A DNA stretch of 64,000 nucleotides from Sinorhizobium alkalisoli (lineage in GTDB: Bacteria; Pseudomonadota; Alphaproteobacteria; Rhizobiales; Rhizobiaceae), in contig NZ_CP034910.1 of NCBI RefSeq assembly GCF_008932245.1, positions 1,364,001 to 1,428,000 of the forward strand. The letters run 5' to 3'. The notes under the pieces are model-generated. The model was not told the DNA's origin and made no database searches. It saw only the letters and a program-made list of their open reading frames with translations. Both the position numbers and the translations under genes were made by a program. Positions 15,996 to 45,318 of the stretch are shown in pieces (the first letter of the stretch is position 1; each line of letters opens with the position of its first letter).

Positions 15996-16421
15996 CGCCA
16001 CACCTCATGGTTGATTGGCAATACCATAGGGACAAAAAGAAAAACTCACGTAAAGCAACAAGGAATACAGACGATAATACTCAAAATTGCAATTTGAGTA
16101 AAATTTTAGGCAATATTTATATTGTTATCGCAGATCTTGCATCCGTAAAAATCTACTGGTTGACCAGGAAAAATCCAGGAGCGTTATGCGATTACTATTA
16201 ATCTGAAGTGCTGCGGGGATGCGATCACCAATCTGTGTTGCTCTTATCGGCGTCACGCGCGGCTAAAAAGATATATGTGAATATGCATCGGTGTCATTCC
16301 AGAACGAAATCATTGAAAACAGCATATTATGATATATGAATCGCCGGTCGGACGGTTTCCTAAGAATTGCTTTCAAAAGGACCTTGTGGTTACGTTCTTT
16401 TAATTCTTGGGGGATGTATCC
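15996..16421. promoter_or_regulatory. AT-rich divergent promoter region between lapG-like and adhesin genes
   Basis: 426 bases with no convincing gene. Most of it, notably 16020-16340, is strikingly AT-rich against the surrounding high-GC DNA, with A/T runs such as aaaattttaggcaatattta. It must hold the promoters of both divergent genes. I could not assign a clear -35/-10 pair. The composition would suit binding of nucleoid-type regulators, which is inference. Confidence 0.55.
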
Positions 16422-30577: not shown

Positions 30578-31477
30578 ATGAGCATTAATTGCGAGATCCT
30601 TGACCTTCGAGCCTTCCTGAGCGTCGTCGAATTGGAGAGCTTTCATCGCGCCGCCGATGCGCTGCATCTGTCACAGCCCGCGTTGAGCCGTCGCATTCAA
30701 AAACTGGAGCAGGTTATAGGAGCGCCCCTCTTGGAACGGACAACCCGGCATGTCTCCGCGACGGCTCTCGGAACAGAGCTCGTGCCGCTTGTCCGACGCA
30801 TGCTGGAGGAGTTCGATGGCTCCCTGTTTGCTGTCCGTGACGTTGGACCTAATCGCGGCGGATTGGTGACGATCGCATGCCTCCCTACCGCGGCGTTCTA
30901 CTTCCTGCCTACCGTCATCCGCCAGTTCAATGAGGAGTATCCGAACATCCGCTTTCGAATTCTCGACTTGCCGGCGACCGACGGTCTTCAAGCCGTGGCA
31001 CGCGGGGAGGTGGAGTTCGGCATAAATATCATGGGCACGTCGGATCCGGACCTGACCTTTGAGCGGCTCGCGGAAGACCCATTCGTGCTTGCAGCGCGCA
31101 AGGATCACCCTCTTGCAGCCAAACCCTCAGTCGACTGGGCAGACCTCGAGCCCTACCATCTGATTACGGTTCACCGGTCGAGCGGCAACAGAACCCTGCT
31201 CGACGCAGCGCTAGCAAAATCGAGTATCAAACTGCGTTGGTTCTACGAAGTGACCCATCTGTCCACCTCCCTCGGTCTGGTGGAGGCCGGCCTCGGGATT
31301 TCAGTGCTACCGCGCATGGCGACCCCGCAGGGCGCCCATCCGTTCTTGATCACACGCCCGATTGGCGATCCCGAGATATCGCGTACCATCGGCGTGGTTC
31401 GCCGTCGCGGCGGCACCTTGTCGCCGGCGGCAGAGCGATTTCTCAAGATGCTGATAGGTGTATGGGGAGGTGATTGA
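30578..31477 (+). CDS. LysR-family transcriptional regulator
   Basis: 299 residues. The N-terminal winged helix-turn-helix (LRAFLSVVELESFHRAADAL then LHLSQPALSRRIQKLE) and the C-terminal effector domain from about residue 90 are both clear. It is transcribed away from the PrpF-like/ABC operon with 114 bases between them, the classical arrangement for a LysR activator of a divergent catabolic operon. The inducer is unknown. The gene is the last host gene before the transposon. Confidence 0.9.
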   Translation: MSINCEILDLRAFLSVVELESFHRAADALHLSQPALSRRIQKLEQVIGAPLLERTTRHVSATALGTELVPLVRRMLEEFDGSLFAVRDVGPNRGGLVTIACLPTAAFYFLPTVIRQFNEEYPNIRFRILDLPATDGLQAVARGEVEFGINIMGTSDPDLTFERLAEDPFVLAARKDHPLAAKPSVDWADLEPYHLITVHRSSGNRTLLDAALAKSSIKLRWFYEVTHLSTSLGLVEAGLGISVLPRMATPQGAHPFLITRPIGDPEISRTIGVVRRRGGTLSPAAERFLKMLIGVWGGD

Positions 31478-31710
31478 GAGGCGCTAAGAAATCAACAGCC
31501 GCAAAGCCAGAAAGCCTCACGACCATAGCCGCCGCCACCCATCCGCGTGCCAGGGATTGCGGGAAAGCCGAGCCCGAGGGGGCTCTCGCCGGCACTTGGG
31601 AACTGGCTCAAATTAAGGTTCCTTTCCCGTTCAGCGGCGTCGTCTGGAACAGGGCCAAGACGTCTGTCTTGGATATGCAACCAAACTTGCCCCGGCGGGA
31701 GAGCTTCGTC
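31478..31710. other. Host spacer left of the transposon
   Basis: About 230 bases between the lysR stop and the transposon with no gene that I can support. Before insertion this DNA would have led directly into the promoter of the gntR/TRAP operon now found at 45305. Confidence 0.5.
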
Positions 31711-31715
31711 TCTTT
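31711..31715. repeat. Left target-site duplication TCTTT
   Basis: TCTTT directly abuts the outer end of the left inverted repeat and is repeated exactly at 45300-45304. A 5-bp duplication is the hallmark of Tn3-family transposition. Confidence 0.9.
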
Positions 31716-31753
31716 GGGGTCGTTTGTGGGAGGGGGCGAAATACTACCTTAAG
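31716..31753 (+). repeat. Left terminal inverted repeat of the transposon (38 bp)
   Basis: Begins GGGGTCGTTTGTGGG at 31716 and ends ACTACCTTAAG at 31753. It matches the reverse complement of 45262-45299 except at position 12 (T here, C in the other). The transposase stop codon TAG (complement of 31744-31746) lies inside it. Confidence 0.95.
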
Positions 31754-34370
31754 GGCGGCCATCGATATTCTCCAGTGAGCGTTATATGCTCCCATCCGAG
31801 CGGTGAGACGTGAGGCAGGAGCCCGAGGTCGATTTGTTGGCCGCTGGCGATTTGCTCGGCGACGATTTCGCCGAGCGTCCATGTGTTCCAATAAATGATG
31901 ATTGCGGTGAGGAGGTTGAGACCGGCAATTCGATGTTGCTGTCCCTCGGACGACCGGTCGCGGATTTCGCCACGCCTGTTGAAGTTGACCGCGCGCTTGA
32001 GGGCATGATGGGCCTCGCCCTTGTTCAATCCGATCTGTGCTCGACGCTGCAAATCAATGTCGCTCAACCAGTCGAGCATGAAGATCGAACGCTCCAGACG
32101 CCCGACCTCTCTAAGTGCCAGTGCCAGGCTGTTCTTACGTGGATAGGCGGCGAGTTTTCGAAGTATCTGACTTGGCACGACGGTCCCGGCGGCCATGCTG
32201 GCAGCGAGCCGCAGAATATCAGGCCAATTTTCACGGATCAGCCGAATGTTGATGCGGCCGCCGATCAGCGGCTGGAGCGCAGGAGGCACCTGGTCAAGAG
32301 CGGGAACGTAAAGCCGCTTGTCCGGCAGATCGCGGATTCTCGGCGCAAACCGGAAGCCGAGAACGGAGCAGATGGCAAAAACATGATCCGTGAAACCGCC
32401 GGTATCGGCATAATGCTCGCGGATTTGCCTTCCGGTGTCGTTCTGCAGCAGACCATCGAGAATGTAAGGTGCCTCGTGCGCGGTCGCGGGAATGATCTGA
32501 GTCGAATAGGGAGCATACCGATCAGAGACATGGCTGTACGCCGAAAGACCCGGCTCATTGCCATACCGGGCATTGACGATATTCAGTGCTTCCCCGGTCG
32601 AACCTGCCGGAAAGTGCTGGCCATCCGAGGACGAAGTCTTTCCGTCGCCCCAGAAGCGGGCCATCGGTAATTTCGACTGCGCCTCGACGATCATCGCAAG
32701 GGCGCGTGCCGTCGTCTCCTCTCTGACGTGCCATTTGCCGATCCGGAGCAACTCCCAGAAGGTGTGGGTGTCGCAGGCGTCGGCCATCTTCCTGAGACCG
32801 AGGTTGACGCCATCGGCGAGCAGAACGGTCATCACGCCGATCCGATCGCCGCAGCAATACCCGTGCGGAGATCAGTGAAGGCGTCCGTGAAGCGCAGCTT
32901 TTCGTCGACCTCGATGAGGATGTCCGTGATCCGAACGGACGGCATACTTTCATAGAGTTTCAGGACGAGCGCGGCAGCCTCCTCCGGCGCCGCCCTTTCG
33001 AGCCGGTCGATCTGAAGCTTGCCATCTGCGACGGCCCCACCTGCGAGAACGCCAGCCTCATTGGCACATGAGATCTGCGCCATGCCGCGTTTGAGAATGT
33101 GGCTTCGATGGCGAAGCCAGTCGTCCGCCTCCAGAGGAACGGCCAGCCGTGCAGTTTCGGATACCGTTTCGATTGGGACCAGCGCCGTGCTGATCTCGCG
33201 ATACCGCCTGCTGTCCGCCAGCCAGATGTCGCCCGAACGCAGAGCATTGCGAAGTTCGAACAACAGCCCGATTTCCCAAGCTAGCCGATCTGGCTTCCCA
33301 TCCTTCAGAATCCTTTTGCGCCATCTTGCTCGGGCAAAGTCGAGCGGTGCATTCACTGGCAAAGTGCGATGGCCGCGGCGATTGAGGCGGCGCAGAAATT
33401 CCAATGCTTCGAGCAGCGAATCTGCGCCGCGTCCACCGCGGAACGCCAGGACTTCCAGAAACCGAGGCGCATACCTCCGGAAACGGGCATATCCGTCGGT
33501 CACAAATTCCAACGGGTCCGCTGAGACCTTGCCTGTGAGCGCAGCCGCCTGTGCGACAGTCTGGCGGAGCAGCTCCCAGCCACCACCTTCCGCGATGGCC
33601 ATTCCTAATTCGTCCTGCACTTTATGCGCGGTGATCAGTACCTCGCCGAAGCGACAAAGCATTTTCAGAGTATCGCCGATCGAGGCGCGCTCGGCCTGCA
33701 GCAGATCATCCCGTTTGCGTTCACAGGTACGATAGAGTTTTCCGACAACGCGGTCATGCGTCTCGACGGCGACATCCGCCAGCATGGCCGACCATTCGAC
33801 GGCGCATGCCGCCAAGATCGCCAAATCGTCGATTTTCCGACAGATCCCGCATTCCATCGGCGGAATAGCGTTCGCCCTGGCGGCGCAGACCGGCCACGCG
33901 GTGAGGTGGGATGCCGTCGAGAATGCCAACATCGACGGCGAGCTTGCGCAGAAATTCCAGCCTGTCGAGCAGGCCATTCATATCGTTGGAGTTGGAGCCG
34001 ACTTCGAACTGACGCAACCACACAAAGCGCGTCATTCGGCCATCGGCAGTTTCGGAAAGCAGGGACAGAAGCCGAGCGCGGCTCTGCGCGTCCAGACGCC
34101 CTGCAATACGGGACGCGATCGCCCGTTCGGCGGCGACCAGGGCATCGGCACAGCATCGTTCGACGGTTGAGATCGCCGGGACAATCACATTGCGACTGCG
34201 CAGTTCCTCCAGAAACTCGGCCGCCAACAGGTCATTCGTTCTTGATCTCTCGGCGGCCTCCTCGAGCCATGTGAGCATATCCGTGGGCGCTTGGCCTTCG
34301 AACGGTCGATAGCCGTAGAGCTGCTGCAATGCCGCCGAATGCTGATATCGCGTTTCCGATCTCGCCCCAT
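31744..34370 (-). pseudogene. tnpA: Tn3-family transposase TnpA, broken by two frameshifts
   Basis: Three overlapping frames read as one Tn3 TnpA. The N-terminal part ends near 33830 (..MRDLSENRRF); the middle part continues (..AILAACAVEWS to TDLRTG) until about 32855; the C-terminal part runs from DRIGVMTVLLADG to the stop inside the terminal repeat. The DDE catalytic domain is complete in the last piece: D in WGDGKTSSSDGQ, D in YADTGGFTDH, E in FNRRGEIRDRSSEGQ. The second break looks like loss of about one base near 32857. The extreme N-terminus is not recognisable. The product is presumably inactive, so the element would need a transposase in trans. Confidence 0.88.
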
Positions 34371-34417
34371 ACTCGGCGCGGTCAGATGCAGATGGCTGTA
34401 GCGGATGGTGAGCGTCG

Positions 34418-34909
34418 TCGCGTGGTCCTGACTGAATGGCGGCTCTCGTCTGGCAATCCGCGCGTGCGAGAAGACGTCTCCCAATTTCGAGGGACAGCGT
34501 TGGTCTTCCCGCAAGATGACAAATCTCGGCGCAGCAACCCGAACCCACGACAGGCGTCCGGCCCGGTTGCGAAAGAAGGGGACGCCCAATGACCGTTGTG
34601 CGAGCCAGTAATGGCGTCAACAGTCCTTATCGTCGCCGCAACAGCCGCAATCCGTCAGCCGCATCGCCTCCTGGAGATCGCAAAGTTCGGGGTGACCGTG
34701 ACAGCAGTCGTTGACCAGAAAGCCGATGAGCATGCGGATGCTGTCGACGTCGGCGCGATACATGATCGAGCGGCCGGAGCGCGTCGCGCGCACGAGGCCG
34801 GCGCGGGCCAGAATGCCCAGATGAGAGGAGAGCGTGTTGTGCGGGCATCCGATCGCCTCGGCAATCGCACCTGCAGCCAAGCCATCGGGCTCCTCCTTCA
34901 TCAGGAGCC
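34418..34909. repeat. Direct repeat copy A (tnpA 5' flank plus 3' part of arsR)
   Basis: This segment recurs in the same orientation at 41734-42163. It covers the flank of tnpA (for example gttgcgaaagaaggggacgc at 34567-34586) and the 3' two thirds of the intact arsR gene. Copy B has lost about 53 bases and carries many point changes. The two copies bracket aioBA and the ars operon. Confidence 0.85.
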
Positions 34910-35036
34910 GGAAGATCTCCATCCGGGTCGGCTGGCCGAGGGCTGCGAGCGCGACAAGACCGTGCGTGCTTGACATCGTGCCGCCGCTTTCCTCTGGGCC
35001 TGCGTGGCCAATGACGGCAAGCGTGGTTTTCTCCAT
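34617..35036 (-). CDS. arsR: ArsR-family arsenic-responsive repressor (first copy)
   Basis: 139 residues, winged helix-turn-helix of the ArsR/SmtB family (QPTRMEIFRLLM, then CPHNTLSSHLGILARAGLV). The C-terminal NDCCHGHPELC supplies a vicinal cysteine pair plus a third cysteine, as in the arsenite site of Acidithiobacillus-type ArsR; a further CGCCGDDKDC tail adds thiols. GGAGG lies 5 bases before ATG 35036, so this start is preferred over ATG 34976. It is divergent from aioB, with an ArsR-type operator between them, and so probably represses itself and perhaps aioBA until arsenite binds. Confidence 0.9.
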   Translation of the reverse strand: MEKTTLAVIGHAGPEESGGTMSSTHGLVALAALGQPTRMEIFRLLMKEEPDGLAAGAIAEAIGCPHNTLSSHLGILARAGLVRATRSGRSIMYRADVDSIRMLIGFLVNDCCHGHPELCDLQEAMRLTDCGCCGDDKDC

Positions 35037-35144
35037 GAATCCTCCAGATCGTCGCTTTGGTCACCCGCCGAGGACGGATGACAAATCCATCTTTTTCTAT
35101 TATCGTTCGTGTCGGGAATTCTAGAAATAACAAAATATGAATCC

Positions 35145-35170
35145 GACGTTCATGGGTCTCTTTGAACGTC
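35145..35170. promoter_or_regulatory. ArsR-type operator in the arsR-aioB divergent region
   Basis: GACGTTCA (35145-35152) and TGAACGTC (35163-35170) form a perfect 8-bp inverted repeat with a 10-base spacer. Inside it, TCAT-N7-TTTG (35150-35164) exactly matches the operator consensus reported for E. coli-type ArsR. I saw no sigma-54 -24/-12 element nearby, although sigma-54 promoters drive aioBA in some other rhizobia. Confidence 0.7.
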
Positions 35171-35255
35171 TCCCTCTTGGGACGTCATCGAGCCTGTGGG
35201 TTCTGTCAAAACAGACCGCAGCCAGAATGGGCGTCAAATAGAGGGAGGAGAACCC

Positions 35256-35774
35256 ATGAAACGATGCCATGCCATGGTCGATATCGGGCGCCGTCAATTC
35301 CTGACCGGCGCCGGCGTCGTCGCCGCAGGCGCGGTCGCCTCGACCGTTGCGCCGTCTGAGGCGGTAGCCGCCGCGCCGGCGCGAATGCAATATCCATCGA
35401 ACCGCCTTGCTAATGTGGCCGATCTCAAGGTGAACGAACCGCTCGATGTGAGCTATCCCGATCAAGATGCGCCCGGCGTGCTCCTCAAGCTCGGCACGAA
35501 AGTGGAGGGCGGCGCCGGTTCCGACGGCGACATCGTCGGGTTTACCACCATCTGTCCCCACAAGGGATTCCCGCTCACCTACAAGGCCGACGACAGGACA
35601 TTCAATTGTTCGGGTCACTATTCGCGCTTCGACGCTGAGCGCGGAGGCCTGGAGATCTGGGGCCAAGCGACCCAAAACCTGCCGCAATACATGCTGCGCA
35701 TCGACGACAAGGGCGACATCTATGCCGAGGGGCTCGACGAGCTTCTCTATGGCCGCCTTTCCAACGTGCTTTGA
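35256..35774 (+). CDS. aioB: Arsenite oxidase small subunit, Rieske protein AioB
   Basis: 172 residues. A twin-arginine signal (GRRQFLTGAG) sends the folded complex to the periplasm. The Rieske 2Fe-2S ligands are C100 and H102 (CPHKG) and C118 and H121 (CSGHYS). The positions that carry a disulfide in many Rieske proteins are F105 and G120, so that bridge is absent, as reported for the rhizobial NT-26 enzyme. AGGGAGGAG precedes ATG 35256. AioA follows after 11 bases; the pair oxidises arsenite and passes electrons to a c-type cytochrome or azurin, neither of which is encoded nearby. Confidence 0.95.
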   Translation: MKRCHAMVDIGRRQFLTGAGVVAAGAVASTVAPSEAVAAAPARMQYPSNRLANVADLKVNEPLDVSYPDQDAPGVLLKLGTKVEGGAGSDGDIVGFTTICPHKGFPLTYKADDRTFNCSGHYSRFDAERGGLEIWGQATQNLPQYMLRIDDKGDIYAEGLDELLYGRLSNVL

Positions 35775-35785
35775 GGGAGGGTAAG

Positions 35786-38320
35786 ATGGCTTACAAACGT
35801 CAAATCGGGCAATTGCCCATCATCCCACCAAATGCGAGGGTCCAGACCGTCGTCTGCCATTACTGCATCGTCGGTTGTGGCTACCACGCCTATAGCTGGG
35901 ACGTGAACACAGAGGGCGGCCCGGCGCCATCAGACAATATCTTCGGTGTCGACCTTTCCAAGCAGCAGGAGGCGGAAGCCGACGCGTGGTACGCCCCGGC
36001 TATGTACAACATCGTCAAGCAGAACGGACGTGACGTCCATCTCGTCATCAAGCCGGACAAGGAGTGCGTGGTGAATTCAGGTCTCGCTTCCATCCGCGGG
36101 GCGCGCATCGCCGAGATGAGCTACAGCCGCGCCCGCAACACTCAGCTTCAGCGCCTCACCGATCCGATGGTTTGGCGTTACGGCGAGATGCAGCCGACGA
36201 GCTGGGACGACGCGCTCGACCTCGTCGCCCGCGTCACTGCCGCCATCATTGACGAACAGGGCGAAGACGGGCTCTTCGTCTCCGCCTTCGACCATGGCGG
36301 CGCCGGCGGCGGATATGAAAACACCTGGGGCACCGGCAAGCTCTATTTCGGTGCCATGAAGGTGAAGAACATCCGCATCCACAACCGTCCGGCCTATAAT
36401 TCCGAGGTGCACGGCACGCGCGATATGGGCGTCGGGGAGCTGAACAACTGCTATGAGGACGCGGAACTCGCCGATACGATCGTTGCGGTCGGTACCAACG
36501 CTCTCGAAACCCAGACCAACTATTTCCTCAACCACTGGGTCCCGAACCTGCGCGGCGCGTCGCTCGACAAGAAGAAGCAACTGATGCCGGACGAGCCGCA
36601 TGACGCCGCCCGCATCGTCATCGTCGATCCGCGCCGCACGGTCACCATCAACGCCTGCGAGGTGGAGGCGGGCAAGGAGAACGTGCTGCACCTGGCGATC
36701 AATTCGGGCACAGACCTTGCGCTCTTCAACGCCCTTTTCACCTACATCGCCGAGAAGGGCTGGGTCGACAGGGAACTGATCGAGAAGAGCACGCTGCGCG
36801 AGGCGCCCGCGCGGCCGCCGCTTTATCCGGCGCGTGGCGTTTCGGAAGCGAACCCCGGCCACCTCACCGGCTTTGAGGCCGCCGTCGAAGGCTGCCGCAT
36901 GTCGGTCGAGGACGCAGCCAAGATCACCGGCCTCAAACCGGAGGACATCGTCAAGGCGGCCGAGTGGATCGCCATGCCGAAGGAAGGCGGCAAGCGCCGG
37001 CGCACGATGTTCGGCTACGAGAAAGGTCTGATCTGGGGCAACGACAATTACCGCACCAATGGCGCGCTGGTGAATATCGCGCTCGCGACCGGCAATGTCG
37101 GCCGGATGGGTGGTGGCGTCGTCCGCCTCGGCGGTCACCAGGAGGGCTATGTCCGGCCGAGCGACGCGCATGTCGGGCGGCCCGCGGCCTATGTCGACGA
37201 GCTTCTGATCAGCGGCAAGGGCGGCGTCCACCACATCTGGGGCTGCGATCACTACAAGACCACGCTGAACGCCTTTGAGTTCAAGCGGGTCTACAAGGAG
37301 CGGACCGACAAGGTGAAGGACGCGATGTCGAGCGTCGCCTATGGCGACCGCAGTGCGATGGTCGACGCGATCGTTTCGGCGATCCGCCAGGGCGGCCTCT
37401 TCGCCGTCGATGTCGACATCATCCCGACCAAGATCGGGCAGGCCTGCCATGTGTGGCTCCCTGCGGCGACCTCGGGCGAGATGAACCTGACGTCCATGAA
37501 CGGCGAGCGGCGGATGCGGATCACCGAGCGCTATATGGACCCGCCCGGTCAGGCGATGCCCGACTGCCTGATCGCCGCGCGGCTTGCCAACAATCTGGAA
37601 CGGGTGTTCCGTGAGACGGGAAAGGGCGACGTGGCCGACATGTTCAAGGGCTTCGACTGGCAGACGGAAGAAGATGCCTTCATGGACGGTTACGCCAAGA
37701 ACGCCAAGGGGGGCGAGTTCGTCACTTACGAGCGGCTGCGCGCCATGGGCACCAACGGCTTCCAGGAGCCCGCAACCGCCTTTGCCGACGGCAAGATCGT
37801 GGGTACGCAACGACTTTATGAGGACGGCGTCTTCTCCACGGATGACGGCAAGGCGCGCTTCATGGATGCCCCTTGGCGCGGTCTTCAGGCGTCGGGCAAG
37901 GAAGAGGAGAAGGCCAAATGGCCGTTCCTCATCAACAACGGCCGCACCAACCATGTCTGGCAAAGCGCCTATCTCGACCAGCAGGAGGAACTGGTCGTTG
38001 ACCGCTGGCCCTATCCGTTCATCGAAATCAATCCGGAGGACATGGCGGAATTGAGCCTCAAGGAAGGCGATCTCGTCGAGGTCTATAACGACAACGGTTC
38101 GACCCAGGCGATGGTCTATCCGAAGGCGGCCATGAAGCGCAAAGAAGCGTTCATGCAGTTCGGCTATCCGAAGGGCGTTCAGGGCAATGTCGTGAGCCCT
38201 GGGACGAACGAGCTCATCATCCCGAACTACAAGCAGACTTGGGCGGCGATCCGCAAGATCTCCGATATTCCGGGGAATGCAAAACACCTGTCGTTCAAAT
38301 CGCAGGAATACGCAGTCTGA
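35786..38320 (+). CDS. aioA: Arsenite oxidase large molybdopterin subunit AioA
   Basis: 844 residues, the usual length of AioA in the DMSO-reductase family. The 3Fe-4S ligands are C24, C27 and C31 (VVCHYCIVGCGYHAY), the AioA-specific CxxCxxxC spacing. It has no signal peptide of its own and is exported together with AioB. GAGGGAGGG precedes ATG 35786. It oxidises arsenite to the less toxic arsenate in the periplasm. No molybdenum-cofactor genes and no aioX/aioS/aioR regulators are in the window. Confidence 0.96.
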   Translation: MAYKRQIGQLPIIPPNARVQTVVCHYCIVGCGYHAYSWDVNTEGGPAPSDNIFGVDLSKQQEAEADAWYAPAMYNIVKQNGRDVHLVIKPDKECVVNSGLASIRGARIAEMSYSRARNTQLQRLTDPMVWRYGEMQPTSWDDALDLVARVTAAIIDEQGEDGLFVSAFDHGGAGGGYENTWGTGKLYFGAMKVKNIRIHNRPAYNSEVHGTRDMGVGELNNCYEDAELADTIVAVGTNALETQTNYFLNHWVPNLRGASLDKKKQLMPDEPHDAARIVIVDPRRTVTINACEVEAGKENVLHLAINSGTDLALFNALFTYIAEKGWVDRELIEKSTLREAPARPPLYPARGVSEANPGHLTGFEAAVEGCRMSVEDAAKITGLKPEDIVKAAEWIAMPKEGGKRRRTMFGYEKGLIWGNDNYRTNGALVNIALATGNVGRMGGGVVRLGGHQEGYVRPSDAHVGRPAAYVDELLISGKGGVHHIWGCDHYKTTLNAFEFKRVYKERTDKVKDAMSSVAYGDRSAMVDAIVSAIRQGGLFAVDVDIIPTKIGQACHVWLPAATSGEMNLTSMNGERRMRITERYMDPPGQAMPDCLIAARLANNLERVFRETGKGDVADMFKGFDWQTEEDAFMDGYAKNAKGGEFVTYERLRAMGTNGFQEPATAFADGKIVGTQRLYEDGVFSTDDGKARFMDAPWRGLQASGKEEEKAKWPFLINNGRTNHVWQSAYLDQQEELVVDRWPYPFIEINPEDMAELSLKEGDLVEVYNDNGSTQAMVYPKAAMKRKEAFMQFGYPKGVQGNVVSPGTNELIIPNYKQTWAAIRKISDIPGNAKHLSFKSQEYAV

Positions 38321-38911
38321 TCGTGCTCGCCAGTAAGGGTCGCATCTTTCGGGGTGTCCGACGAGGGCACCCTGATTTTGTTGCGCACCGCCTCAGAGGA
38401 GGTGTGCCCCAAACGAGCCCAAGAAGGCAAGGCGGCGCGTTTTCATCATCATTCTCGTGGCTCAGGCGTCCCTGCGGATTGCAGGCGAGAAGATCGAGGG
38501 CATTTGGCTCATGGGCGAGGCGGTCTTTCTGGCCGGAGGCACCTGGGAAGATTCTCTCTCGGTTTGCAGTGGCCCCTGGCTTCCCTTCTGGTGATCCTGC
38601 TCGGGGTCGAGCCTGCTCTGGGAAGCGCTCTTCGGCAAGCCAAAGCCGGGCGCTTCGATTCGCAATTTTCACAGAAATCGACGTCGTCGGCGATATGTCT
38701 CCCCGCTGGCCTGTCGCCGCGTGCAAGTCATCAATGAACGAAATACAAAACAACGCTGCCTATCACCTGAACGAGTGCGAGCACAACGCAGACAACGAAC
38801 AGGATCGGCTTCCACCAGGGTTTTGTCCAATCGGCCTCGGGTCTCTGCATTCACAAATTGCCTCAGATCGAATTGTCGGCCGATGCCGCTCCTTCGCGGG
38901 CAGAAGTATGC
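38321..38911. other. Gene-free stretch after aioA, with possible terminator
   Basis: 591 bases with no frame I can support on either strand. A hairpin at 38352-38372 (gggtgtcc/gggcaccc, one mismatch) followed by tgattttgtt may end the aioBA transcript. The cytochrome c or moeA gene often found after aioA is absent. The stretch may be decayed DNA. Confidence 0.45.
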
Positions 38912-39637
38912 TCAGATCGACCTGAGCTTGACCCGCTGTTCAAGCTTCTCCTCGTCTTCCTTGCGCTCGCTGTATCGGTCGACGAGATAGGCCGACACGT
39001 CGCGAGTGAGCAGCGTGAACTTCACGAGCTCCTCGCAGACGTCGACGACGCGGTCGTAATAGGACGACGGCTTCATCCGACCGTTCGCATCGAACTCCTG
39101 GTACGCCTTGGCGACCGACGACTGGTTCGGGATCGTTATCATGCGCATCCAGCGGCCGAGCAGACGGAGCGTGTTCACCGCATTGAAGGATTGCGAGCCG
39201 CCCGAAACCTGCATGACGGCGAGGGTCTTACCCTGCGTCGGCCGGATGGATCCGATCGACAGCGGTATCCAGTCGATCTGTGCCTTCATCACCCCGGTGA
39301 TCGCCCCATGCCGTTCCGGACTCACCCAGACCTGGCCTTCCGACCATTCCGAGAGTTCCCGGAGTTCCTGCACCTTGGGGTGGCTGGCGGGCGCGTCGTC
39401 CGGCAACGGCAACCCGGAAGGATCGAAGAAGCGCACTTCCGCCCCGAAGCGTTCCAGCAACCGCCCAGCCTCCTGAGCAAGAAGCCGGGAATAGGACACC
39501 TGGCGCAGCGATCCGTAGAGGATCAGGATGCGCGGCGGGTGGGTCGAGAACGGCGGCCGCAGCGCATCGATATCGGGCTTGCGGAGATGACGCGGATCGG
39601 CGGCGGGAAGATCAGACAATGCGGCCGCCCTCTTCAT
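38912..39637 (-). CDS. arsH: ArsH, NADPH-dependent FMN oxidoreductase of arsenic resistance
   Basis: 241 residues, flavodoxin-like. The FMN phosphate loop [19 protein letters not shown] and the block [24 protein letters not shown] are characteristic of ArsH. The family reduces flavin-dependent substrates and is linked to oxidation of trivalent organoarsenicals. ATG 39637 overlaps the end of the upstream arsC. Last gene of the five-gene ars operon; the order aqpS-arsC-arsH is as in Sinorhizobium meliloti. Confidence 0.93.
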
Positions 39638-40043
39638 CAAGAACCTTCTCGCCGTCTTCCTTGACGAACGGTCCCTTGAAGGCATCGGCGGGTAGGATAT
39701 CGAGAACCGCCTCCGATGGCCGCGCCAGCCGGGTGCCGATCGGGGTGACGACGAACGGCCGGTTGATGAGGATCGGATGCTCGAGCATTGCCTTCAGCAA
39801 CTGGTCGTCGGAGAGTACCGGATCGTCGAGACCAAGCTCCGCAAAGGGCGTTCCCTTCTCCCGGATCGCCTCGCGGACGGAGAGACCGGAGTCGTGGATC
39901 ATTCGGGCAAGTTCGTCCCGGCTCGGCGGAGTCTTGAGATATTCGATCACCGTCGGCTCGATGCCGGCATGGCGGATCAGCGCCAAGGTGTTGCGAGACG
40001 TGCCGCATGCGGGGTTGTGGTAGATGGTGACGTCCATGGTCAT
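39612..40043 (-). CDS. arsC: Arsenate reductase, glutaredoxin-dependent ArsC
   Basis: 143 residues, thioredoxin-fold ArsC/Spx family. The catalytic cysteine is C13 in [13 protein letters not shown], and the arginine-bearing block [12 protein letters not shown] matches the E. coli-type enzyme. It reduces arsenate to arsenite in the cytoplasm using glutathione and glutaredoxin. ATG 40043 follows AAGGGAA and overlaps the aqpS stop (ATGA). It is the second arsenate reductase of this operon and belongs to a different fold family from the first. Confidence 0.94.
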
Positions 40044-40738
40044 TCGGTTCCCTTGACGGTTATCGGGAAAGTTGAGGTGTTTCGTTCGGTGTGCATCCAC
40101 CCTACGACGGCCGCGGCGACGAGCGCGCCGAAAAGCTCGGCGGCGATGAACGCCGGGACGTCCGCCGGACGGATGCCCGCAAAGGTGTTCGAGAAGGCGC
40201 GGGCGACGGCGACGGCAGGGTTCGCGAAGGACGTCGAGGCGGTAAACCAATAAGCGGCCGTGATGTAGAGGCCGACCAGCCACGGAATGGTGTCGGCGCG
40301 GAAGCGCAATCCCGCCAGAATCGTGAGAACGAGCCCGAAGGTCGCGACCGCCTCGGCGAGCCACTGGCCCGTTCCCGTGCGGACCGTTTCCGACACCTGC
40401 AACAGGGGCAGGTCGAACATCGCATGCGCAATCAGCGTCCCGGCAATGCCCCCGGCAATCTGCGCGAGGACATAGAGCGAGGCCGCGGTTGCGTCGATCT
40501 CTCGCTTTGCTGCGAACACCAGGGTAACCGCCGGGTTGAAGTGTGCGCCGGAGATCGGTCCGAGAATGCTGATCAGCACAACGAGGATCGCGCCCGTCGG
40601 TATGGTGTTGCCGAGCAACGAGACCGCCACGTCGTTGGAGAGACGGTCGGCCATGATACCGGAGCCGACGACGGTCGCGACCAGGATGGCCGTGCCCAGG
40701 GCTTCCGCAGCGAGGCGGCGGTTCAGGTCAAACGCCAT
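40040..40738 (-). CDS. aqpS: Aquaglyceroporin AqpS, arsenite channel
   Basis: 232 residues, six membrane helices and the two pore NPA motifs (GAHFNPAVT and SFANPAVAVARAF). In S. meliloti AqpS sits in the ars operon in place of an ArsB/Acr3 pump and lets cytoplasmic arsenite leave down its gradient after ArsC action. The position between two arsC genes fits this. No active arsenite pump is visible in the window. Its stop overlaps the arsC start and it begins 3 bases after the upstream arsC. Confidence 0.94.
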   Translation of the reverse strand: MAFDLNRRLAAEALGTAILVATVVGSGIMADRLSNDVAVSLLGNTIPTGAILVVLISILGPISGAHFNPAVTLVFAAKREIDATAASLYVLAQIAGGIAGTLIAHAMFDLPLLQVSETVRTGTGQWLAEAVATFGLVLTILAGLRFRADTIPWLVGLYITAAYWFTASTSFANPAVAVARAFSNTFAGIRPADVPAFIAAELFGALVAAAVVGWMHTERNTSTFPITVKGTE

Positions 40739-40741
40739 GCG

Positions 40742-41251
40742 TCAGCCCGCCTTCGGAATGTTGCGGCCGATCTCGTCGAGCCTTCTCTGCAGGGCGAGCT
40801 TGTCGAGGCTCGTCATCGGCAGGCTGATGAAGATCGAGATGCGGTTGTTGAGCATGCGGTAGGTTTCGGTGAAGGCAAAGTGCTGCTCGGTATCACTGCC
40901 CTCGGCCGCGGCCGGATCAGGTACGCCCCAGTGCGCCGTCATCGGCTGCCCCGGCCAGACGGGACAGACCTCGGCGGCGGCGTTGTCGCAGACGGTGAAG
41001 ACGAAATCCATTTGCGGCGCACCGGGAGCGGCGAACTCGTCCCAGGCCTTCGAGCGGGCGAAGGACGTGTCGTAGTTCAGCCCCTTGAGGAGCTGCAAGG
41101 CAAATGGATGCACTTCTCCCTTCGGCTGCGATCCCGCGGAATAGGCCTTGAACCTGCCCATGCCGAGCCTGTTGAGGATGGCTTCGGCTATGATCGAGCG
41201 GGCCGAGTTGCCCGTGCACAGAAACAGGACGTTGTAGACTTTGTCGCTCAT
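40742..41251 (-). CDS. arsC: Arsenate reductase, low-molecular-weight phosphatase type
   Basis: 169 residues, LMW-PTPase fold. The anion loop C-x5-R is C12 to R18 in LFLCTGNSARS, and the acidic residue of the DPA motif lies in WGVPDPAAAEG. VFTVCDNAAAEVCP supplies the further cysteines used by thioredoxin- or glutathione-coupled ArsC enzymes of this type. ATG 41251 lies 19 bases after the arsR stop. It is not homologous to the glutaredoxin-type arsC two genes downstream, so the operon has two independent reductases. Confidence 0.9.
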   Translation of the reverse strand: MSDKVYNVLFLCTGNSARSIIAEAILNRLGMGRFKAYSAGSQPKGEVHPFALQLLKGLNYDTSFARSKAWDEFAAPGAPQMDFVFTVCDNAAAEVCPVWPGQPMTAHWGVPDPAAAEGSDTEQHFAFTETYRMLNNRISIFISLPMTSLDKLALQRRLDEIGRNIPKAG

Positions 41252-41270
41252 GGGCGCTCTCCAGTTTCGT

Positions 41271-41630
41271 TCATAGAGTCTGCGCCTCCTCACTGGTAGC
41301 GCAGCAGGGGGTCAGATCGGAGATCAATGGCGCGCAGAGACTGGCATTGCCGCCGCAGCAGTCCTGCAGGAGGTAGAGCATCACCGCCCGGAACCGATCG
41401 AGATCGACGCGGTAGATGATCGAGCGGCTTTGCCGCTCGCCCCGAACCAATCCCGCCTGCGAGAGCGTCGCAAGATGCGCCGACATGGTGTTCTGCGGCA
41501 CGTCGACCAGTCTGGCCAGTTCGCCCGCCGGCACGCCTTCGGGTTCCCGTTCGACCAGCAGGCGGAACGTTCTCAGGCGTGTGGCTTGGGCAAGGGCGGC
41601 CAAGGCGGCAATCGTCTGTTTTTCATCCAT
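41271..41630 (-). CDS. arsR: ArsR-family repressor of the ars operon (second copy)
   Basis: 119 residues. Winged helix (ATRLRTFRLLVEREPEG, then VPQNTMSAHLATLSQAGLV) and a C-terminal QDCCGGNASLC that repeats the CC-x6-C thiol pattern of the other ArsR. The two repressors are clearly related but far from identical. First gene of arsR-arsC-aqpS-arsC-arsH. The frame also has TTG at 41633, but ATG 41630 gives the normal N-terminus. A promoter-like sequence ends only 6 bases before the ATG, so the mRNA may be leaderless. Confidence 0.9.
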   Translation of the reverse strand: MDEKQTIAALAALAQATRLRTFRLLVEREPEGVPAGELARLVDVPQNTMSAHLATLSQAGLVRGERQSRSIIYRVDLDRFRAVMLYLLQDCCGGNASLCAPLISDLTPCCATSEEAQTL

Positions 41631-41632
41631 CA

Positions 41633-41664
41633 ATCCAGAATAATGGATATATCTGACAAGTCAA
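41633..41664 (-). promoter_or_regulatory. Promoter and candidate operator of the ars operon
   Basis: Reading the minus strand, TTGACT (41664-41659) and TATTCT (41642-41637) are 16 bases apart. ATCCA-N6-TGGAT, a 5-bp dyad (41633-41648), overlaps the -10 and would place a bound ArsR on it. The predicted start of transcription falls at or next to ATG 41630. Confidence 0.55.
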
Positions 41665-41733
41665 TGGCTGGCCGCGCCCGGTGGATGGGACCTTCCGGTC
41701 GCTCTGGGTGGAAAAACCTTCAGGAGAGCGGTC

Positions 41734-42163
41734 CTCGCGTGGTCCTTGCTAAATGGCGGCTCTCGTCTGGCAATTCGCGCGTCCGAGAAGACATCTCCCA
41801 ATTAGAGGGACAGCGTTGGTTTCCCGCCGACAGATCTCAGCGCAGCAGCCCGGCCCACGACAAGCATTCGGCCCCGGTTGCGAAAGAAGGGGACGCCCTA
41901 TGACCGTTGTGCGAGCCAGTATGGCGTCAGCTTATCGTCGCCGGGAACAGCCACAATCCGTCAGCCGCACTGCCTCCTGAACATCGCAAAGTTCCGGGTG
42001 ACCGTGACAGCAGTCGTTGACCAGAAAAGCCGATGAGCATGCGGATGCAGGCCGGCGCAGGTCAGAATGCCCCGATGAGAGGAGAGCGTGTTGTGAGGGC
42101 ATCCGATCGCCTCGGCAATCGCGCCGGCAGCGAGGCCGTCTGGCTCCTCCTTCATCAGGAGCC
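41734..42163. repeat. Direct repeat copy B (decayed tnpA-flank/arsR copy)
   Basis: Degraded copy of 34418-34909 in the same orientation. Shared blocks include gttgcgaaagaaggggacgc, atgaccgttgtgcgagccag and gtgaccgtgacagcagtcgt. About 53 bases present in copy A between gatgc and aggccggcgc are missing at about 42047. Confidence 0.85.
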
Positions 42164-42170
42164 AGAGCCT
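41940..42170 (-). pseudogene. Relic of a third arsR gene
   Basis: The minus strand encodes LLMKEEPDGLAAGAIAEAIG, then CPHNTLSSHRGIL, near-identical to residues 44-76 of the intact arsR at 34617-35036. After an internal 53-base deletion and a base insertion it continues with a changed tail. The N-terminal third is gone, replaced by an IS5-type transposase fragment in the same open frame. It cannot make a functional repressor. Confidence 0.85.
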
Positions 42171-42560
42171 CTCGACGCAATTGGGCTCGTTGTACAGGTC
42201 GGGGCTAAAGCAGATGGGGTTCCTGCGGTTTCGCTTCGGTGGGATATTCGCCCATGCGCCCCGGAGTCTGACGAAGTCCCGAATGGCTTCGCTGTCGTAG
42301 GCGCGCTCCGCCAGGCAATCCTCTTTCAATCCGTCGATGAGGTTGGTCGCAAGGCCGTTGTAGTGGTCCTGTCCGGCGCTGAGCGCAAGGTGGAGCGGCA
42401 ATCCTTTGCCATCGATACGGATCGTCAGCCCACCGCGCGAGCGGCCGACATTGGTCGCTGCGGTTCTTCTTGCACAAGACCCACGCTGGTGGAGAGGGGG
42501 CGACTCGCTACACCAAACTCGGTTTCGACGACCGTTCGGAAACACGACCGCGCCGACCAC
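42164..42560 (-). pseudogene. IS5-family transposase fragment
   Basis: The minus strand encodes GRSRGGLTIRIDGKGLPLHL, LSAGQDHYNGLATNLIDGL, AERAYDSEAIRDFV and AWANIPPKRNRRNP, the characteristic DDE block order of IS5/IS427-type transposases. The N-terminal half and the region after NEPNCVERL are missing, and no IS ends were found. It is fused in frame to the arsR relic, so it probably entered that gene and was then partly deleted. Confidence 0.85.
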
Positions 42561-42591
42561 TTAACCCTTTTTGAGACAGCCTCCCTTTCTT

Positions 42592-42633
42592 TTGATCCGG
42601 ATCAAGCGAGACCTTCCTGAAGGCTGTTATAAA
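42592..42633 (+). promoter_or_regulatory. Class II FixK/FNR-dependent promoter
   Basis: TTGATCCGGATCAA (42592-42605) is a perfect FNR/FixK palindrome. TATAAA at 42628-42633 is a good -10. The predicted start near 42640 puts the box centre at -41.5, the standard class II position. The following gene has GGAGG (42653-42657) and starts at 42664. Expression should rise under low oxygen. Confidence 0.8.
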
Positions 42634-42663
42634 GTTAAGTTGGACTTGTTTTGGAGGTGTGAC

Positions 42664-43149
42664 ATGGCGATCACATTGAAAGAGAAGGAACTCGCTGCCC
42701 TTGGTATTTCCATCGCCGCCGGTTGTAAGCCGTGCACCGATTTTCATGTGAAGAAGGTGCGTGAGTCTGGCGCATCAGACGCGGAAATCAGGCAGGCGAT
42801 AAACGACGCTTTGTCTGTGCGACGCAGCGCCACTGACATCATGGAGGCCTACGGGCTGACTCATCTTGGTGAACGCAAGTCAGCGGCCGATCCAGAGGAC
42901 GCGCGGGGGACCGACCGCGTGCACGAACTCGTGTGCATAGGTGCAGCTTATGGCGTCAACTGCGTGTCGAGCCTCAAATTGCATCTGGATGCGGCCGAGA
43001 AAGCGGGGATATCGCACGAAGAAATAGAGACGATCGTAAAGCTTTCTGCGTTTATCAAGGGGAAAGCGGCCTCACATGTGGAGCACTTGGCCGAAAGCCT
43101 GAAGAAGCCCGAGGTGGTTTATGAGCAGCAGGTAAGCGCTTGCTGCTGA
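42664..43149 (+). CDS. Carboxymuconolactone decarboxylase (AhpD-like) family protein
   Basis: 161 residues with two CMD-like halves. The first has the AhpD-type redox motif C21-x2-C24-x3-H28 (GCKPCTDFHV); the second (GAAYGVNCVSSLKLHLD) keeps the helix pattern with a single cysteine. The protein ends in SACC. CxxCxxxH proteins of this family act as peroxide- or thiol-linked reductases, so a stress role is likely. GGAGG precedes ATG 42664, and a FixK/FNR promoter lies directly upstream. It lies inside the transposon and may head a short operon. Confidence 0.8.
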   Translation: MAITLKEKELAALGISIAAGCKPCTDFHVKKVRESGASDAEIRQAINDALSVRRSATDIMEAYGLTHLGERKSAADPEDARGTDRVHELVCIGAAYGVNCVSSLKLHLDAAEKAGISHEEIETIVKLSAFIKGKAASHVEHLAESLKKPEVVYEQQVSACC

Positions 43150-43249
43150 CCTTGGATCGCCTCCGGATAAACTCGCGGGATGCGGGTACCAGCCCGCTGT
43201 GTAAGCGGCGTTGCCCTGGGAGGACCGAAAAGATGAAGCGAGACCGCCA

Positions 43250-43615
43250 ATGCAAAAGGTTCTGATTGCGATTTGCACTGCGGCAATTGCGGCCCTGTTC
43301 CTCGCGCCGAGCGCGGTGTTGGCGCAGGCACCGTCAGACGCCGAAAGGTACGCTTATGGTCCGGGCATGATGGGGTGGGGTGGAGGCTGGATGATGATGA
43401 TTTTCGGCCCGCTCTTCATGATCCTCTTTCTGGCCGTGCTGATTGCAGCCGTGGTTTTTCTCTCCCGCTGGGCTGGTGGACCATGGCAGGGATCAGCTAC
43501 GCCACACGCCACGCCGTCCGGCCGCACGCCGCTTGATATTCTCAAGGAGCGCTTTGCGCGCGGCGAGATCGACAAGGAGGAGTTCGAGGAGCGCCGCCGC
43601 GTGCTCGGCGAATAA
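43250..43615 (+). CDS. Membrane protein with SHOCT domain
   Basis: 121 residues: a signal peptide or first helix (about 1-25), a glycine/methionine-rich segment (GPGMMGWGGGWMMM), a second membrane helix and a C-terminal SHOCT domain (PLDILKERFARGEIDKEEFEERRRVL). SHOCT is a short oligomerisation-type motif common in small membrane proteins. The likely start is ATG 43250; the frame is open from TTG 43211. It follows the CMD-family gene by 100 bases in the FixK/FNR-headed module. Function unknown. Confidence 0.75.
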   Translation: MQKVLIAICTAAIAALFLAPSAVLAQAPSDAERYAYGPGMMGWGGGWMMMIFGPLFMILFLAVLIAAVVFLSRWAGGPWQGSATPHATPSGRTPLDILKERFARGEIDKEEFEERRRVLGE

Positions 43616-43757
43616 GTCGTGTTTGCCGAACGGCTGATGGCACGAAAGTGTCCTTGCGGCGGAGGCGTGTTCGGAAAGTCGAAGAAGGGACGGCTGTGAA
43701 GCCTTGCTTTAGGCAGCATTGATGCGCAGATACGACGACAGACTGGAGGAGTGGAAA

Positions 43758-44018
43758 ATGGCACAATCAGCCCCCATGCCGAAGTGCCCGATGGCAGAAA
43801 CCTGTAAGGGCATGATGGAAAAACCGCTTTCCGGCCTGGTAATGGTGATGCCAGGGATTGCGTTCATAAGCCTCGGCGTATTGATCGCTGTTTGGCCATC
43901 TGTCTTACCATGGCTCGTGGCCGCCGCTTTCATCCTGGCGGGTGGCGCCATGCTGATGATGGCCAAATTCATGCGTGGGGTCGGCGCCCGGCTCAGACCC
44001 CCCCAAGCCAGCCCATAA
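43758..44018 (+). CDS. Small two-helix membrane protein, unknown
   Basis: 86 residues. An N-terminal cysteine-bearing segment (MPKCPMAETCKGMM) is followed by two hydrophobic helices (about 22-44 and 46-68) and a basic C-terminus. GGAGGAG sits just before ATG 43758, which supports translation from there and not from further upstream. The two spaced cysteines and several methionines could bind metal, which is speculation. No family recognised. Confidence 0.6.
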   Translation: MAQSAPMPKCPMAETCKGMMEKPLSGLVMVMPGIAFISLGVLIAVWPSVLPWLVAAAFILAGGAMLMMAKFMRGVGARLRPPQASP

Positions 44019-44067
44019 TAGTCGGACATGCGCCGTTTTTCCGAGCGGCTAGCGGTGGGAACCTGAC

Positions 44068-44859
44068 ATGCAGGCCTCAGCAGAGAAGCTACTGAAGACC
44101 TATCTCGGCCAACGGACTGGCGAGCGCGTTCTGGCGGGCCGGACGAAGCGGGGCGAAGGTGAAAAGATCCACGCGGTTATCTGGCTGTGCGACCTGCGGG
44201 ATTCGACCCGACTTTCCGAATCGATTCCTGTGGAAGACTTCTTTCGCACCCTGAACGAATTCTTCGACTGCACTGCCGGAGCCGTACTGGACCATGGCGG
44301 GGAGATCCTCAGCTATATCGGCGATGCAGTGCTCGCGATCTTTGCCATCGGCGGGACCGAGAGGCCGCTGCGCGAAGCGTGCTTCCCCGAAGAGGGCGCC
44401 TGCGCGGCCGCGTTAGCAGCGGCCCGGGCCGCGCGGTCGCGCGTCGATGCCCTCAACGACCGGCGAGAGACGAGGGGGGAGCCACGGCTGAACTTCGGTC
44501 TTGCCTTACACGTTGGCGACGTGATGTACGGGAACCTCGGGGTTCCCCAGCGCATGCAATTCACCGTTATCGGCGCGGCGGCCAATGAAGCCGCGCGCTT
44601 GGCTGGGATGTGCAAGGACCTACACCGCTGGGTTCTCGTTTCGTCGAGGTTTCGGCGTTGCTTCCCGGGCCAGTTGATATCACTCGGCCACCATCTTATG
44701 CGTGGTGTCGAAACGCCCCAGGAGATCTTCACGCTCATTGACGACGACAAGGCTTCGCTCAACCTGGAGCAGAAGCAGGCGCCGCGACCGGGTTCTTCAA
44801 CCGGGGTCGGCGAGATCGAGTGCAGTGCATCCGATATATGCAAGCGACCGCGCCCGTGA
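44068..44859 (+). CDS. Class III adenylate/guanylate cyclase, catalytic domain only
   Basis: 263 residues. The class III cyclase domain spans about 35-225, with both metal-binding aspartates in place (IWLCDLRDSTRLSE and LSYIGDAVLAIF) and the late motif NEAARLAGM. Rhizobial relatives usually have an N-terminal sensory region before LLKTYLGQRTGERVLAGR; here the protein starts at that linker, so the gene is either a stand-alone cyclase or 5'-truncated. The last 30 residues look unrelated to the domain. It lies near the right end of the transposon. Confidence 0.8.
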   Translation: MQASAEKLLKTYLGQRTGERVLAGRTKRGEGEKIHAVIWLCDLRDSTRLSESIPVEDFFRTLNEFFDCTAGAVLDHGGEILSYIGDAVLAIFAIGGTERPLREACFPEEGACAAALAAARAARSRVDALNDRRETRGEPRLNFGLALHVGDVMYGNLGVPQRMQFTVIGAAANEAARLAGMCKDLHRWVLVSSRFRRCFPGQLISLGHHLMRGVETPQEIFTLIDDDKASLNLEQKQAPRPGSSTGVGEIECSASDICKRPRP

Positions 44860-45054
44860 GGCAGTTCTGAACAACAGACTGGGCGCTCAGACCGCCGCGC
44901 TGGAAGCTGAGCTTGCACCGGTCCGAGAGCAGGTTGCTCGGCTGGAGCAGCGGGCATCGACCTTCGCCGCGGGCGACGATGAGGAATTTCTGACGGCAAT
45001 AGCCGCGCTCAGCACCTCGCTCGCGGGCGAAGAGATTGCCGCCCTGAGGCCGAG
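44826..45054 (+). pseudogene. Coding remnant of unknown family
   Basis: In one plus-strand frame the sequence reads YASDRAREAVLNNRLGAQ, then EAELAPVREQVARLEQRA and [18 protein letters not shown]. It looks like real protein, probably a coiled-coil tail, but it has no start of its own and runs into an IS630-type fragment. I do not recognise it. Confidence 0.4.
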
Positions 45055-45060
45055 GCGCTG

Positions 45061-45174
45061 GCCACCCCGGCCCACGCCATCGTGCTGTCGGCCGATGAGA
45101 AGAGCCAGATCCAGGCGCTCGATCGCACCCAGCCCGGCCTGCCCCTGAAGAGGGGCCGGCTCGGCACCATGACG
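45061..45174 (+). pseudogene. IS630-family transposase fragment
   Basis: 38 codons encode the IS630 DDE block: [20 protein letters not shown] followed by [25 protein letters not shown] is highly characteristic of this family. The rest of the gene is missing on both sides, and the frame ends within about 15 codons. It is a decayed insertion just inside the right end of the transposon. Confidence 0.85.
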
Positions 45175-45261
45175 CCTATTCAACGCCGTTGTGTGGCGAA
45201 ACCGGCCAAAATCCCTATCGTGTGAAAGATGTCATGGTCGCTTAGGTAACGCGCCCGATCG

Positions 45262-45299
45262 CTTAAGGTAGTATTTCGCCCCCTCCCGCAAACGACCCC
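45262..45299 (-). repeat. Right terminal inverted repeat of the transposon (38 bp)
   Basis: Reads CTTAAGGTAGTATTTCGCC inward to outward and ends AAACGACCCC at 45299. It pairs with 31716-31753 at 37 of 38 positions. Confidence 0.95.
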
Positions 45300-45304
45300 T
45301 CTTT
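45300..45304. repeat. Right target-site duplication TCTTT
   Basis: Exact copy of 31711-31715 directly outside the right terminal repeat. Confidence 0.9.
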
Positions 45305-45318
45305 TAACAATTGACTGA

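Follow-up and report, generated by a model that had tools for sequence, protein, structure and literature searches.

The locus and its genes

The stretch analyzed here, called the window throughout, is 64,000 bases long (bases 1,364,001–1,428,000 of contig C2, 1,981,775 bp) and is located on the chromid of Ensifer (Sinorhizobium) alkalisoli, a soil bacterium that fixes nitrogen, in a genome of 6,128,433 bp and three contigs. It contains a unit with the ends of a Tn3-family transposon, and between these ends lie genes for arsenite oxidase (aioBA) and arsenic resistance (ars). The main text of the E. alkalisoli YIC4027 genome paper, in the part available, has no word beginning with 'arsen-' (PMC6689892; chromid pYIC4027b). 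Features of the unit are collected in Table 1.

A preliminary description of this DNA, made from its letters alone, listed aioBA, two arsR, two arsC, aqpS and arsH as cargo, and Pfam and PDB searches support that list. The best PDB match of AioA is the AroA chain of 4aay (residues 6–847 of 849), and AioB matches the AroB chain of the same structure. Motifs for the Mo/3Fe-4S site of AioA and the Rieske cluster of AioB are present; these are arsenite oxidase genes as read from sequence. The aioBA and ars reading frames are intact, besides a third, broken arsR. This third arsR, remnants of IS5 and IS630 type and a broken tnpA are additions to the earlier list. No efflux pump was seen among the open reading frames (ORFs) of the unit.

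Table 1. Features of the arsenic-gene unit and its borders (positions in the window)
Feature	Position	Strand	Basis or remark
Target-site duplication TCTTT, left	31711..31715		sequence
Left 38-bp terminal inverted repeat	31716..31753	+	inverted-repeat listing, genome scan for end
tnpA pseudogene	31744..34392	-	codons 86-967, three pieces, two frame breaks relative to intact relative
Direct repeat copy A (arsR1 in part, with DNA downstream of it)	34407..34909		88-91% identical to copy B
arsR1, divergent from aioB	34617..35036	-	Pfam
TTCTAGAAAT, candidate ArsR operator	35119..35128		putative function; sole occurrence in window, between arsR1 and aioB
8-bp perfect dyad GACGTTCA-N10-TGAACGTC	35145..35170		in the arsR1-aioB intergenic DNA; weak operator candidate
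aioB, Rieske subunit with Tat signal	35256..35774	+	Pfam, PDB match
aioA, molybdopterin/3Fe-4S subunit, intact	35786..38320	+	Pfam, PDB match
arsH (ORF as listed)	38912..39685	-	FMN_red; name by homology
arsC, ArsC/glutaredoxin-like type	39612..40043	-	Pfam
aqpS-type MIP channel	40040..40738	-	Pfam
arsC, low-molecular-weight phosphatase type	40742..41251	-	Pfam
arsR2	41271..41630	-	family search
Direct repeat copy B with third, broken arsR	41723..42173		aligns with copy A to about 42163
IS5-type transposase fragment, fused to broken arsR repeat copy	42174..42560	-	42-51% identity in listed rows
Carboxymuconolactone decarboxylase (AhpD)-like protein	42664..43149	+	family search
SHOCT-domain protein, probably membrane-bound	43250..43615	+	family search
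Small hydrophobic protein	43758..44018	+	family search, no family match
Adenylate/guanylate cyclase-like protein	44068..44859	+	below Pfam cut-off, E 0.004
IS630-family remnant beside right end	45067..45173		94-95% identical to Sinorhizobium and Rhizobium copies
Right end block of transposon family	45176..45299	-	82-94% identity in Sinorhizobium, Ensifer, Aminobacter
Right 38-bp terminal inverted repeat	45262..45299	-	inverted-repeat listing, genome scan for end
Target-site duplication TCTTT, right	45300..45304		sequence

Boundaries and transposition genes

The unit spans 31716–45299 (13,584 bp). Its 38-bp terminal inverted repeats agree at 37 of 38 positions (97%) and are the top-ranked inverted repeat pair in the 64 kb. 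The chance expectation for a 37/38 pair is about 3e-12 per window by a rough formula with equal base frequencies. TCTTT, a perfect 5-bp target duplication, stands outside both ends. The size of the unit, its repeats with one mismatch and the duplication had been claimed at these positions, and the coordinates were exact on recheck. A scan of the genome at up to 3 mismatches found no third end; the two copies are the unit's own. The assignment to the Tn3 family likewise holds, with a TnpA DDE domain (PF01526, E 6e-134, on one of the tnpA pieces), 38-bp ends of the form GGGG...TAAG, the 5-bp duplication, and kin with the same ends and duplications.

The earlier view of the unit as a complete Tn3 transposon has to be given up, as tnpA is truncated and twice frame-broken and tblastn found no resolvase gene tnpR in the window. 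The first 85–90 codons of tnpA are gone; the DNA match to the intact relative in E. adhaerens stops at 34378 (about codon 90), and the DNA that separates tnpA from tnpR in the relatives is absent from the unit. Sequencing error could account for the frame breaks; it cannot account for the missing start. At E≤1e-10, all three matches to TnpA in the genome are pieces of this pseudogene. The chromid also holds a 97-aa TnpR fragment, at a distance of about 108 kb. The 19 kb read around it has no end or tnpA beside the fragment, so it is probably a separate relic. With a broken tnpA, no resolvase, no other TnpA relative and no third end, the unit looks non-autonomous, and very probably it cannot move by itself in this strain.

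Relatives of the transposon

The left part of the unit (31716–34378) is 93% identical in DNA to E. adhaerens pCTYH.Ch1_3 and 87% identical to two Rhizobium plasmids. The E. adhaerens element (L141:483–28591) is 28.1 kb long, has the same kind of ends with ACTGA on both sides, and differs from the window's unit in its intact 967-aa tnpA, its divergent tnpR and its cargo. That cargo consists of sugar and amino acid ABC transporters and gluconate-related genes, making it a large Tn3-family element with catabolic cargo. Equal 5-bp duplications flank four of the seven other elements with two ends: L141 (ACTGA), L007 (TATAT), L018 (ATCTA) and L013 (TCGTC). Both ends were found in L008, L138 and L139 as well, which lack equal 5-bp duplications, and six further stretches have one end only. 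In the relatives L141, L007 and L008, genes follow tnpR on its right, in a passenger position.

The smallest relative, in Ensifer sp. LC163 (L013:3702–6455), is 2,754 bp long and has both ends, TCGTC twice, the 3' end only of tnpA, and no tnpR. It landed with a duplication although tnpA is deleted, so tnpA-less members of the family can move in trans. Its single large frame encodes a cyclase-TolB-TPR protein; a cyclase-like gene is likewise present close to the right end of the window's unit.

A degenerate-pattern scan of a genome collection, from which the own genome was possibly left out, gave six stretches, and at up to 2 mismatches the end occurs in 6 of 394 sampled Rhizobiaceae genomes, own included. 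It shares 34 of 38 bases with the end of a transposon beside strA-strB on a Klebsiella plasmid (L221), which we take to be Tn5393 from those genes, and 29 of 38 with that of Tn5403. With the intact E. adhaerens TnpA as query, rather than the window's own, identities are 58.6% to the Tn5393-type protein of L221, 52.9% to Tn5403 and 41.6% to TnAs3. The available part of one source places Tn5393.1 in the Tn163 subgroup (PMC7157771). As judged through L221, the window's unit is like this subgroup in its ends, and its relatives in having tnpR divergent from tnpA; it differs in its arsenic cargo, broken tnpA and lost tnpR. On sequence grounds it looks like a decayed, non-autonomous, Tn5393-like rhizobial transposon of the Tn3 family, with relatives of 2.75–28 kb.

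Survey of other aio loci

We examined 90 other aioA loci: 46 from Rhizobiaceae, 34 from a sample of the order and 10 from plasmid records. Of 394 Rhizobiaceae genomes 45 match, and the set takes in all 44 that are not the own genome (one with two loci), plus one congener (G001), which is the only other genome with an aioA match among 33 genomes of the genus, own included. From the order, 34 of 397 genomes match besides the own one, and 33 of these are included, one of them contributing two loci; G082 is omitted, as are two weaker second places. The plasmid set holds 10 of 36 records. Stretches of about 9–12 kb were fetched on each side where the contig allowed, and some were shorter (down to 5.6 kb in total), so a larger unit could be missed. 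The loci are partly redundant: L151 and L201 evidently represent a single record, and the aio regions of pSinA and pAtCFBP6624 are near-identical.

Within the fetched stretches, none of the 90 loci has a TnpA relative (E≤1e-3), this 38-bp end (up to 10 mismatches) or a 38-bp repeat pair with duplication, and the same test does detect the window's unit. At L214 there is a weak generic repeat pair (29/38), which no duplication accompanies. In three further aio loci, on betaproteobacterial plasmids, the stretch read contains no gene annotated as a Tn3 transposase. The preliminary description had proposed searching for the end at the borders of aioBA loci and had seen in the unit a direct mechanism for spread among rhizobia. 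The search yielded no such end at another locus, and the proposed mechanism finds no backing in these data, with one copy in the own genome and, in the stretches fetched around 90 other loci, no related TnpA, no such end and no repeat pair with a duplication. The window is a singular case in the surveyed sample, not a demonstrated route of spread.

Regulation and proposed arsenic chemistry

The regulatory genes aioXSR are not adjacent to aioBA in the window, as in a minority of the other aio loci. A genome search at E≤1e-10 gave no AioX, with a query that does match other aio loci. Many organisms with aio are described as lacking aioXSR in the available parts of two papers (PMC3834237, PMC4563254). 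A sigma-54-like motif lies upstream of aioB in all four AioXSR loci tested, with identical motif letters in L011 and L155. None scored upstream of aioB in the window, and the Nitrobacter hamburgensis locus gave weak scores only.

Between arsR1 and aioB, the element TTCTAGAAAT is a candidate ArsR operator; it recurs three times around the ars genes of N. hamburgensis. The perfect dyad next to it makes a weak candidate, since an 8/8 dyad arose in 56 of 2000 shuffles. Separately, plasmid 2 of N. hamburgensis has a perfect 12-bp dyad without spacer between arsR and aioB (L152:11837–11860), also a candidate ArsR operator, in this case at an aio locus free of AioXSR.

From this gene content, we propose that intracellular arsenate would be reduced by the two ArsC to arsenite, which would exit through the AqpS channel, and that periplasmic AioBA would oxidize the exported arsenite to arsenate. 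ArsR1, encoded divergently from aioB, and ArsR2 would derepress the two operons on binding arsenite, replacing AioXSR and a sigma-54 promoter. A wider picture, of a portable arsenite oxidizer that is controlled by ArsR and free of AioXSR, came from outside Ensifer as a single Tn3-family unit and is still mobile in trans by Tn5393-like transposases, strikes us as somewhat doubtful and is offered tentatively.

Origin of the cargo

The gene order arsR< aioB> aioA> <arsH <arsC <aqpS <arsC <arsR is common to the window and to the arsenic island on plasmid 2 of N. hamburgensis X14 (L152), listed in the available part of PMC3834237. The island differs in having neither this end nor a TnpA relative that we could find, and in an AioA of another clade. 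In a quick AioA tree (82 rows, SH-aLRT support only), the window's AioA pairs, at an SH-aLRT of 96, with that of L188, whose genome belongs to a different family of the order. The Ensifer/Sinorhizobium AioAs of L106, L154 and L150 form a separate clade together with that of L098, and a third clade holds the AioA of N. hamburgensis. Kinship of AioA therefore does not explain the common gene order. Since the window's AioA lies outside the clade of other Ensifer/Sinorhizobium AioAs, its sequence suggests that aioBA probably entered by horizontal acquisition.

Other parts of the cargo have other kin. ArsH of L098 is 96% identical to the window's ArsH. S. fredii GR64 has a block similar to arsH-arsR2 and, 5.7 kb from it, a piece of the same right end that is broken off within the repeat. 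The one plasmid neighborhood inspected for kin of arsR1 is an ordinary ars operon. A search for intermediates with the right-hand cargo and no aio gave none: matches occur in 8 of 297 genomes of the family, the own one among them, and the other seven match only in or around the SHOCT gene.

Insertion site

The right flank has long matches in 30 of 32 congeners and the left flank, up to about 31458–31502, in 19 of 32. Both flanks are on one contig in four of these genomes (G006, G009, G021, G032), where they are 0.4–1.4 Mb apart; in the others with both flanks they sit on different contigs, some assemblies being draft. The pre-insertion site is thus not preserved in the genomes compared. DNA upstream of the right flank differs in all seven relatives inspected (G006, G009, G011, G020, G021, G023, G025). 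The junction at 45305 rightwards, upstream of a GntR/TRAP-transporter locus, is perhaps a frequent one for gene gain or rearrangement.

Flanks that lie so far apart in congeners could also be taken to mean that the two ends are unrelated, stemming from different insertions. We find this scarcely credible: the ends match at 37 of 38 positions, are bordered by equal 5-bp duplications and both match the ends of the family, and the left one adjoins the 3' side of a Tn3 tnpA, just as the relatives have it.

History of the unit

The history that we favor, at a probability of roughly 0.55, is that the cargo was aboard an intact element at landing and that the element decayed afterwards; on whether the arsenic module was aboard at that time, taken by itself, we lean towards yes. 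A then-intact element would have carried the module, in passenger position, to the TCTTT site by copy-and-paste transposition, with TnpA acting on the 38-bp ends. A later internal deletion reaching to arsR1 would have removed res, tnpR and the start of tnpA, and the two frame breaks would have arisen. To move again, the unit would depend on a related TnpA acting in trans.

Several observations weigh against this history or parts of it. Movement together with the cargo is not demonstrated, as the unit is known from a single copy. The empty site is not readable in congeners, and 31502–31715 has no counterpart in the 32 congeners save for a stretch of 35–37 bp in five of them. The block arsH-arsR2 is 88% identical in DNA to that of S. 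fredii GR64, around which no end was found, and this kinship makes the module a mosaic. The AioA sister L188 has aioXSR, so the ArsR arrangement of the window was not inherited together with AioA. The candidate operator TTCTAGAAAT is missing from four other ars loci looked at (L098, L010, L106, L154).

What the duplication dates is when the ends landed and not when the cargo came, and the left cargo junction, which lies inside tnpA, also fits capture of the cargo after landing. An intact transposon without arsenic genes would then have landed at TCTTT, and the aio-ars genes would have recombined in later, so that aioBA was never transposon cargo. Capture may have run through the direct repeats of the arsR region that flank the aio-ars block (34407–34909 and 41723–42163), and would have destroyed tnpR and the start of tnpA. 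The same gene order without transposon ends in N. hamburgensis fits this course, as does the failure to find a second copy. We still think it unlikely. Later deletion accounts for the tnpA junction equally well, and the module occupies the position where relatives carry genes, to the right of tnpR. The flanking repeats are 88–91% alike, and repeats of 88–91% identity recombine poorly.

A third course, with the module sitting in an already defective element that was moved to TCTTT by a related TnpA now absent, draws on L013, where a tnpA-deleted family member landed with a duplication. It also has published precedent in TIMEs, which in the available part of PMC4133298 are likewise non-autonomous, have Tn3-family ends and are believed to be mobilized in trans by TnpA. 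TIMEs are 262 bp long; the unit, at 13.6 kb and with a tnpA pseudogene, is not one. A search of the genome at E≤1e-10 turned up no related TnpA besides the pseudogene, and we judge this course markedly less probable than capture after landing. Landing of an intact, loaded element followed by decay is the account towards which we lean.

Relation to known arsenic transposons

Tn3-family transposons with arsenic resistance genes are already published; what is new in the unit is its cargo, in an element that is of a known kind and by now defective. Among the published ones, reportedly, is a Tn21-like ars transposon of Acidithiobacillus caldus. TnARS1, within TnMARS1 of Bacillus sp. MB24, is a 13.8-kb Tn3-family element with ars genes, GGGG...TAAG ends and a 5-bp duplication; it differs in its 78-bp ends, a tnpA with the DDE motif, a recombinase gene and ars operons, with no aioBA mentioned in the available part of the paper (PMC6920998). 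In Achromobacter BHW-15, a tn21 gene lies beyond a mer operon that adjoins aio, according to the part of PMC6421061 available. We found no description of aioBA inside a bounded Tn3-family unit in the PMC literature, which leaves most subscription journals outside its coverage.

Elsewhere in the window, positions 16407–24908 hold a 2,833-codon open frame with eight tandem 765-bp (255-codon) repeats, 96–98% identical over the 300 bp compared. It may encode a giant repeat surface protein, which is a guess; the opposite strand is also open, over 2,346 codons.

Biological meaning

The unit hints at a route by which arsenite oxidase genes may have arrived; it is not evidence of continuing mobility or of a general route. 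Arguments on the movement of aio genes have mostly drawn on gene trees, islands and plasmids, and here the boundaries of one insertion are readable to the base. The compact module of aioBA, ArsR and AqpS without AioXSR makes its regulation directly testable.

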